A stretch of 64,000 nucleotides of DNA from Natrialba chahannaoensis JCM 10990 (GTDB lineage: Archaea > Halobacteriota > Halobacteria > Halobacteriales > Natrialbaceae). Positions 21,464 to 22,412 of this stretch are shown here, one piece after another. Both the position numbers and the translations under genes were made by a program. Below the pieces are notes generated by a model. The model was not told where the DNA came from, did not search any database, and saw only the letters and a program-made list of their open reading frames with translations. Position 1 is the stretch's first letter; each line of letters opens with the position of its first letter. The stretch lies in assembly GCF_000337135.1 (NCBI RefSeq), contig NZ_AOIN01000064.1, positions 39,955-103,954 of the forward strand, read 5' to 3'.

Positions 21464-21604
21464 ATGTGAACTACCCCACCATACTCGCTCACGGCTGACG
21501 CCGTTCGCTCCTTGAGGGGAGCGTGAGACCGGGGGTCTCACGGACCATGCGAACGGGCGCTTCGCGCCCGTGAGCAGATGGGGCTTCCTGCTTCCACGAC
21601 GTTG
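21464..21604 (-). ncRNA. candidate TnpB guide (omega) RNA and element end
   Basis: Downstream of the tnpB remnant (reading leftward) are four hairpins: ACGGGCGC/GCGCCCGT (21553-21571), GTGAGACC/GGTCTCAC (21523-21541), CGCTCC/GGAGCG (21506-21523) and ACGGC/GCCGT (21491-21504). On the minus strand they end in GGTGGGGTAGTTCAC (about 21469-21483), then the sequence becomes ordinary. In IS200/IS605-type elements a structured RNA overlaps the 3' end of tnpB and runs to the element end, with the guide beyond. The position and structure fit; no covariance test was possible. Confidence 0.4.
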
Positions 21605-21866
21605 TCAGACAACGTCTGACAGCCTGTCGGGGTTCCCTCGACAAACGCGCTTTGCAGGAACCGACGTGGTTCCCGTAGGGAGCGCAGTCTCCACAGGCGT
21701 TCGAAAATCGCTCAGCGATTTTCGCAGCCCATCAGAATCGCTGTGCGATTCTGAGGACGTTGATTCGGAGCGTCCCGCACCTACTTTCTTGATACTGCGA
21801 GAAAGAATGTTCCACGCCGTCGCAAAATCGCACGCGATTTTGCTGCCCGTCAGACGTAGTCTGACG
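21603..21866. repeat. array of short palindromic insertions in tnpB
   Basis: Perfect inverted repeats, left to right: TGTCAGAC/GTCTGACA (21603-21621), GGAACC/GGTTCC (21657-21673), CGAAAATCGCT/AGCGATTTTCG (21702-21724), TCAGAATCGC/GCGATTCTGA (21732-21754), GCAAAATCGC/GCGATTTTGC (21822-21843) and CGTCAGAC/GTCTGACG (21848-21866). Loops are 1-5 bases. A 14-pair stem (22299-22329, one G.T pair) and GCGCC/GGCGC (22349-22361) flank the other end of the remnant. The units share the core AATCGC, so they look like one repeat family. Confidence 0.75.
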
Positions 21867-22314
21867 ACCGCGTTCCAATCTCTGTCGGCGGTAAACCCGC
21901 ACGACGGACAGGCGTGTTCGCGTACCCACAACGGTTTCTTGGTCGAGACACCGCAGGCTGCACACTCTTTGGTCGTCCCTCGTGGATTGACGGCGACGAA
22001 GTGCGTGCCTTCGCGTTCAAACTTGTACTCGAGCATCCGCAGGAACGTCCCCACGCCGCTCCGGCACGGTTCCGAGAGTTGCCGTCAAGTTCGACCAAGT
22101 CTTTCGCGTCAAGGTCTTCGACGGCCACGAGATCGTACTCTCGAGCGTAGTAGTTCGAGAGCTTGTGAAGGATGTCTCGGCGCTTGTTCTTCAGCCGGTC
22201 GGGTTTCTCCGGTGGCTCTCGATCGACTTCGACACCGAAGGTGGCGACCCACTCGACCGTCGGTTCCTTCTTGAGGGGAACCTGTTTGAGTGCGGCGTCG
22301 TCCTCAGAAATCAC
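21605..22314 (-). pseudogene. tnpB: TnpB (IS200/IS605 or IS1341 type), truncated and frameshifted
   Basis: The remnant covers only the second half of TnpB. The first frame (22314 to about 22060) encodes PLKKEPTVEWVATFGVEVDR and the RuvC-II Glu region YDLVAVEDLDAKDLVE. The second frame (22054-21605) encodes FLRMLEYKFEREGTHFVAVN, the zinc ribbon (CAACG, CPSC) and the RuvC-III Asp (DRDWNA). A frameshift joins them at AAW. The N-terminal 180 residues or so, with RuvC-I, are absent. Two stretches not present in typical relatives (VVRLRLTGSKIACDFAT inside NAAWNILSR, and the Ser-rich run before PVETALPTGT) are encoded by palindromic hairpins. No TnpA is nearby. Confidence 0.85.
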
Positions 22315-22394
22315 CGATTTCTGGGGACGCTGTATCCTCTCCCTGCTCGCGCCTTCGGCGCTCGCTGAGGAAGGGGGCTTAGCGACTCGATTCA

Positions 22395-22412
22395 GCTAAA
22401 ATATGTTTTGGC
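22395..22412 (+). promoter_or_regulatory. near-palindrome shared with psmB, upstream of the BMP operon
   Basis: GCTAAAATATGTTTTGGC matches the psmB palindrome at 16 of 18 positions. It is about 78 bases before the ATG at 22490 and near the edge of the tnpB remnant. It could be an operator or a second promoter. Confidence 0.4.

Follow-up and report, generated by a model that had tools for sequence, protein, structure and literature searches.

What are the perfect palindromes that crowd a decayed tnpB gene of the haloarchaeon Natrialba chahannaoensis JCM 10990, and how did they come to lie within its reading frame? The gene lies in a 64,000-nt stretch of contig NZ_AOIN01000064.1, the whole of which we call the window. 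The original prediction held that the palindromes had been inserted in frame and that they resemble elements found in open reading frames of Rickettsia. Their host is the remnant of a transposon whose termini agree with those of 80 haloarchaeal relatives (TTTAC followed by CTGAATTGAGGCGCTAAGGCCCC at the left, GGGGTAGTTCAC as the last bases at the right). The remnant comprises the following parts:

21466..22395, minus strand: decayed IS200/IS605-type (IS1341) element, with its left end (CTGAATCGAGTCGCTAAG...) at 22395 and its right end (...GGTGGGGTAGTTCAC) at 21466
21850..22314, minus strand: frameshifted middle fragment of tnpB, recognized by Pfam PF01385 (E=6e-5, under the curated cut-off) and by DNA alignment
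21605..22054, minus strand: C-terminal fragment of tnpB with the zinc finger and the RuvC-III motif, the latter interrupted by insert E1 (Pfam PF07282, E=1.8e-20)
21466..21785, minus strand: probable omegaRNA-coding 3′ end hosting inserts E2, E3 and E4, delimited by conservation and by the consensus fold of 53 empty copies

Only these two tnpB fragments are left; alignment places the loss of the N-terminal half between a left-end copy of the palindromic element and the middle of the gene. At 22296-22390, this left-end copy is fused to mid-tnpB by a deletion, and the GACGACGCCG-like junction suggests that the deletion was repeat-mediated. The first 61 residues of the C-terminal fragment are 89% identical to an intact copy in the same genome (C43), and DNA conservation across 21466..21785 is far above that of the remaining gene. 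Scanning the window locus with Rfam matched no family, and a search of a phage collection returned zero matches.

The predicted inverted repeats in and around the tnpB frame are real. Eight perfect hairpins with stems of 8–11 bp and loops of 1–3 nt are present (21522-21542, 21553-21571, 21598-21616, 21702-21724, 21732-21754, 21822-21843, 21848-21866 and 22305-22323), in addition to a weaker hairpin with a stem of 6 (21657-21673). Hairpins with stems of at least 8 bp thus number eight in the 931-bp remnant versus 13 in the remaining 63,069 bp of the window, a ~42-fold enrichment. The predicted layout of single hairpins has to be revised, however, as they are paired into four double-hairpin inserts (51, 60, 46 and ~61 bp) and one truncated copy, one of these pairs lying outside the predicted range of 21603-22361, at 21518-21578. 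Similarly, the unit proves to be the double hairpin rather than a single hairpin with an AATCGC core. Shuffled windows contain 0–1 double hairpins each. The inserts are:

21818..21868, minus strand: E1, 51 bp, in frame between DWNA and AWN (hairpin 21848-21866, spacer GGCA, hairpin 21822-21843)
21698..21757, minus strand: E2, 60 bp, in frame between SE(ST) and TPVETALP (hairpin 21732-21754, spacer TGGGCTG, hairpin 21702-21724), scoring 51.7 bits with model R1
21600..21645, minus strand: E3, 46 bp, out of frame, found also in a fragment on C67 (L022) and in Natrialba taiwanensis (L087) and missing in C43
21518..21578, minus strand: E4, ~61 bp with two hairpins, within the right end, which is non-coding and corresponds to the terminal stem region of the omegaRNA
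22299..22327, minus strand: truncated left-end copy with the first hairpin only, at the site between ATACAGCG and CCGCAC, scoring 28 bits with R1

Sister genes from the same genome, open in C43 (427 aa), C92 and C83 and broken in C55, allow each insert to be compared with its site. In the DNA alignment, E1, which encodes VVRLRLTGSKIACDFAT, is filled in the window copy and C55 and missing in C43, C92 and C83; E2, the Ser-rich run, is filled in the window copy and C43 and missing in C55, C92 and C83. Sister copies lacking E1 or E2 run continuously across these positions, i.e. they are clean empty sites. The hairpins therefore encode exactly the residues that are extra in this TnpB, as had been proposed: VVRLRLTGSKIACDFAT equals the 51-bp indel and the Ser-rich run the 60-bp indel. 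E1 interrupts the RuvC-III motif, and its two hosts are both pseudogenes; the E1 of C55 is 100% identical to that of the window, though the C55 gene is only 66% identical. The E2 site is in the C-terminal tail of TnpB, and many E2 hosts are intact. E3 has a length that is not divisible by 3, and it creates the stop codon that terminates the C-terminal fragment. E4 is also present in C55 and L087 and missing in C43 and C67, while in L049 its site is filled by another double-hairpin insert.

The same pattern of filled and empty sites extends across haloarchaeal tnpB transposons. Among 74 tnpB copies with anchorable flanks, the E2 site is empty in 57 and filled in 17, with inserts of 54, 57 or 60 bp that are hairpinned in every case, so that the extra residues are missing along with the hairpins; no copy had the residues without the hairpins. 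On a tnpB tree built with the tail left out, E2 presence changes 15 times, no fewer than the mean of 15.4 for shuffled labels, and at least seven of these changes are forced by well-supported branches. The left-end site (ATACAGCG followed by CCGCAC) is occupied by full elements in about 20 of the relatives and vacant in 47. Members of one family thus occupy non-homologous sites: besides the left end and the E2 site, they lie in frame in two tnpB genes, one of 453 aa (C80), in its C-terminus, and one of 449 aa (C92), in its N-terminus. The C80 omegaRNA fits Rfam RF02656 (sot0042) with 57 extra nt inserted into the family consensus exactly at the element. Lengths in multiples of three are weak evidence for selection, because at the left end, which is non-coding, inserts of 57 bp are likewise the most frequent class (12 of about 20).

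The elements are 46–62 bp long, and the 33 gathered by pattern from the loci are 33 distinct sequences sharing one plan: CGTC/T, hairpin, spacer (GC), hairpin, RACG, with the two perfect hairpins head to head. All collected copies are such pairs, though the scan and the model both demand pairs. Invariant in alignment A3 are CG, CAGAA/TTCTG, the spacer GC and the final ACG. Nearly all elements have an unpaired tag, CGT[CT], at their left foot and its reverse complement, RACG, at the right one. Stems are 8–11 bp, with a first pair of C-G or U-A (opening Y-C) and a second pair of C-G; loops are mostly 3 nt, spacers read TGTGCG, TGGGCTG or TTGGCA, and a CCA-like tail is absent. A second double-hairpin subfamily, poorly captured by R1, has a TGATCA/TCATCA spacer and CGAGA/CGAAAATC stems and is also found at omegaRNA terminal loops (L019:4405-4508, L020:1959-2006, L073:1609-1662, L082:2872-2926 and L117); in L019, four hairpins stand in a row 3′ of the tnpB stop.

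Comparison of empty and filled sites places insertion 3′ of CG (CA in L049), which is repeated at the right end as ACG (ACA in L049). The dinucleotide common to both ends fits two interpretations, a 2-bp target duplication or a right end that reproduces its target. IS200/IS605 transposition uses a left target and a right-end copy of it, the same arrangement as CG...ACG. Elements occur in either orientation, the left-end copies of L068, L071 and L073 being inverted, and adjoining tandem copies overlap by exactly the 2-base CG (C35:30875-30983 in the own genome and G021:C49:7615-7786). Clusters of two or three tandem or inverted elements joined at CG are found at these two loci and in L171 and L172, and look like the outcome of one copy inserting at another's end.

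Further copies were found in the same genome and well beyond it, so that neither of the two outcomes named in advance as refuting the insertion idea occurred. Of 145 haloarchaeal genomes, 134 contain matches to model R1, each with between one and at least 38 copies; by genus, the family is present in 55 of 58. Among 247 genomes of the phylum, only two isolated matches, which may reflect transfer or chance, fall outside the haloarchaeal order (one each in G179 and G188, with E-values of about 1e-8 to 1e-9). Copies are found at transposon left ends, in tnpB frames and in the 3′ part of tnpB that encodes the omegaRNA; others occur in non-coding repeats or as in-frame inserts of chromosomal genes. 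Nearly all strong copies in the own genome are in IS200/IS605 elements or their remnants, which suggested a restriction to tnpB that other contexts in G042 and G074 rule out. On plasmids, 49 of the 50 best matches are outside listed genes, and the two examined both adjoin tnpA/tnpB; a Halorientalis match annotated within an orc1/cdc6 gene is really the left end of an IS605 element next to the gene. In G042, 18 of the 30 best copies are within a common, larger non-coding repeat and the others in distinct contexts. This GC-rich repeat (L194-L223), which may be a MITE or a PATE, bears most element copies of g35, the genus richest in copies, many of which have multiplied inside it.

Four G042 copies are inside long frames with a third-position GC of ~0.8–0.9, namely dapA, two S9 peptidase genes and a glyoxalase-like gene, and empty-site alignments were made for dapA and one of the peptidases. 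The 57-bp in-frame insert of dapA (19 residues) is present in G042 and its congener G147 and missing in 16 others (five congeners or near relatives and 11 more), while that of the S9 peptidase is unique to G042 and missing in six congeners. With in-frame inserts and empty orthologs in dapA, an S9 peptidase and tnpB, the likeness to the Rickettsia palindromes was largely well drawn.

Whether the pairing is kept as DNA or as RNA can be read from the stems themselves. A covariance model made from 17 elements gave 112 distinct matches, in which 99.2% of stem pair cells are standard and 15 of 18 pairs have double-sided changes, scoring far above slid controls. Among 1956 cells, there are nine G-U (0.46%) and 11 A-C, whereas native omegaRNA stems from 53 empty copies of the same transposons have 134 G-U (7.5%) and 19 A-C (Fisher P=4e-5). 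The ratio is informative, as the model prefers Watson–Crick pairs yet should not prefer A-C over G-U. Selection on RNA would tolerate G-U more than A-C; the finding that G-U is no commoner than A-C in the elements, while native stems retain many G-U, supports pairing that is maintained as DNA. In single-sequence folds, the main scaffold helices stay in place with the E2 insert, which contributes two stem-loops of its own; the element is predicted to occupy unpaired stretches and loops of the omegaRNA.

We consider it very probable that haloarchaea harbor a dispersed, non-autonomous palindromic insertion element and that the hairpins are copies of it. Chance palindromes in GC-rich coding DNA have next to no credibility: only the short arm length speaks for them, and 43 double hairpins were observed across 80 loci versus 0.4 in shuffles. 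It is also quite improbable that the hairpins are functional scaffold parts of the omegaRNAs of these TnpBs, gained and lost as variants with the residues as by-products. E2, E3 and E4 do fall within the omegaRNA-coding 3′ end, the inserts fold as autonomous stem-loops, and the sibling copy in C80 is inside Rfam sot0042; nevertheless, elements are also located 5′ of tnpB, within its N-terminal part and in genes for DapA and peptidases, their presence is scattered over the tnpB tree, and they lack the G-U pairs of native stems.

Two other explanations also appear unlikely to us. The elements might never transpose themselves, being passengers that spread when IS200/IS605 copies recombine homologously and when larger MITE/PATE repeats carry them along. 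This would suit the (near-)identity of E1 and E4 at matching positions in different copies and the larger repeat of G042, but fits poorly with numerous non-homologous sites, exact boundaries and both orientations. Alternatively, they may be a form of SMR-A from Haloquadratum, repeats proposed to serve the cell as a weapon by inactivating IS605 transposons and PATEs. SMR-A hit the same targets (PMC3119063), and the own-genome copies strongly prefer IS200/IS605 elements; SMR-A copies, however, are ~110 bp and near-identical, while the present elements are short and highly variable, and intact tnpB genes bear them, which means that insertion is often non-inactivating. Returning to the insertion element, we infer its past insertions from exact sites, both orientations and non-homologous targets, while recombination between transposons may explain common sites such as E1 (identical in C64 and C55) and E4.

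The element usually resides at the ends of tnpB transposons or in their omegaRNA-coding region; it also lands in genes, where copies that are in frame and free of stops persist, as shown for tnpB, dapA and an S9 peptidase. It probably moves as single-stranded hairpin DNA, and a putative IS200-type Y1 (HUH) transposase could cut and join it in trans, the element mimicking the target and right-end logic of that enzyme. Y1 is our best single guess for the mover, put forward tentatively. Y1 and element counts correlate modestly across genomes (rho 0.33, P=4e-5), and 36 of 45 Y1-negative (PF01797) genomes still bear the element, one with at least 31 copies; Y1 is therefore dispensable for persistence, and we rejected it as sole mover.

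Several known repeats share parts of this design. Fungal mitochondrial double-hairpin elements consist of two adjacent hairpins in spacers and in the variable regions of genes for structured RNAs; the two-hairpin plan is the same, while organisms and sequences differ. The haloarchaeal omegaRNA/sotRNA (RF02656) is the host molecule of several insertion sites. In REPINs, mobilized by RAYT transposases, two inverted tagged hairpins (GTAG tag) likewise form one mobile unit (PMC3116915), but a RAYT association was not seen here, given the many PF01797-negative carriers. CGTC-tagged REPs, which include Rickettsia RPE-4 and RPE-6 and have been reported only from five bacterial phyla, are mostly head-to-head dimers with heterogeneous stems of 8–9 bp opening with two A-T pairs, loops of 4–5 and a CCA tail; they have no dedicated transposase and, inside ORFs, encode 20–30 residues (PMC3733652). 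The haloarchaeal element resembles them in its CGTC-like foot tag, head-to-head pairs, intragenic copies and presence in Y1-less genomes. We do not file it among them, though it works alike, because stem opening, loop and tail differ; its longer stems and strong IS200/IS605 residence also set it apart. SMR-A, reported from the single species Haloquadratum walsbyi, is non-autonomous and is directed to sites close to the terminal palindromes of IS605-type transposons and PATEs, by a movement called enigmatic; its copies have terminal inverted repeats, insert without target duplication, are commonly >95% identical per type and lie mostly outside the transposase ORF (PMC3119063). By this published description, the present element shares non-autonomy and residence in IS605-type elements and differs in size, heterogeneity and occurrence in ORFs. 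The suggestion that such elements are undescribed in haloarchaea accordingly stands in part: the open-license papers searched hold no report of ORF-inserting palindromes in archaea, though description elsewhere is possible, while SMR-A is a related case.

ORF-inserting palindromes have so far been a bacterial curiosity of Rickettsia and a few others; they now extend to a family present in almost every haloarchaeon sampled. Its sites have exact empty counterparts, its copies occur in both orientations and its target rule is simple, which makes it a tractable system for finding the mover in genetically workable archaea. The element accounts for length variation of haloarchaeal TnpB proteins and omegaRNAs, and annotators should treat such residues in conserved enzymes, e.g. 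DapA, as insertions. The comparison of G-U with A-C is a simple, general test that separates DNA palindromes from RNA stems. A bolder possibility, which we regard as somewhat doubtful, is a class-wide archaeal branch of CGTC-tagged elements that infects tnpB transposons, moves as hairpin DNA via their single-strand chemistry, and adds peptides to guide-RNA nucleases and housekeeping enzymes; if true, it would be a parasite of a parasite.

A separate observation concerns the region 150-300 bp upstream of tnpB among L023-L102 (e.g. L023 and L024). Here, two alternative, unrelated small ORFs, one RHH-like (MATRKNISIRDDQAEW...) and one of another kind (MDRHEIEGHEVIDGTAKATGNGAHVLVPKRWRGADVKV...), occur within one tnpB lineage and are exchanged between close relatives.
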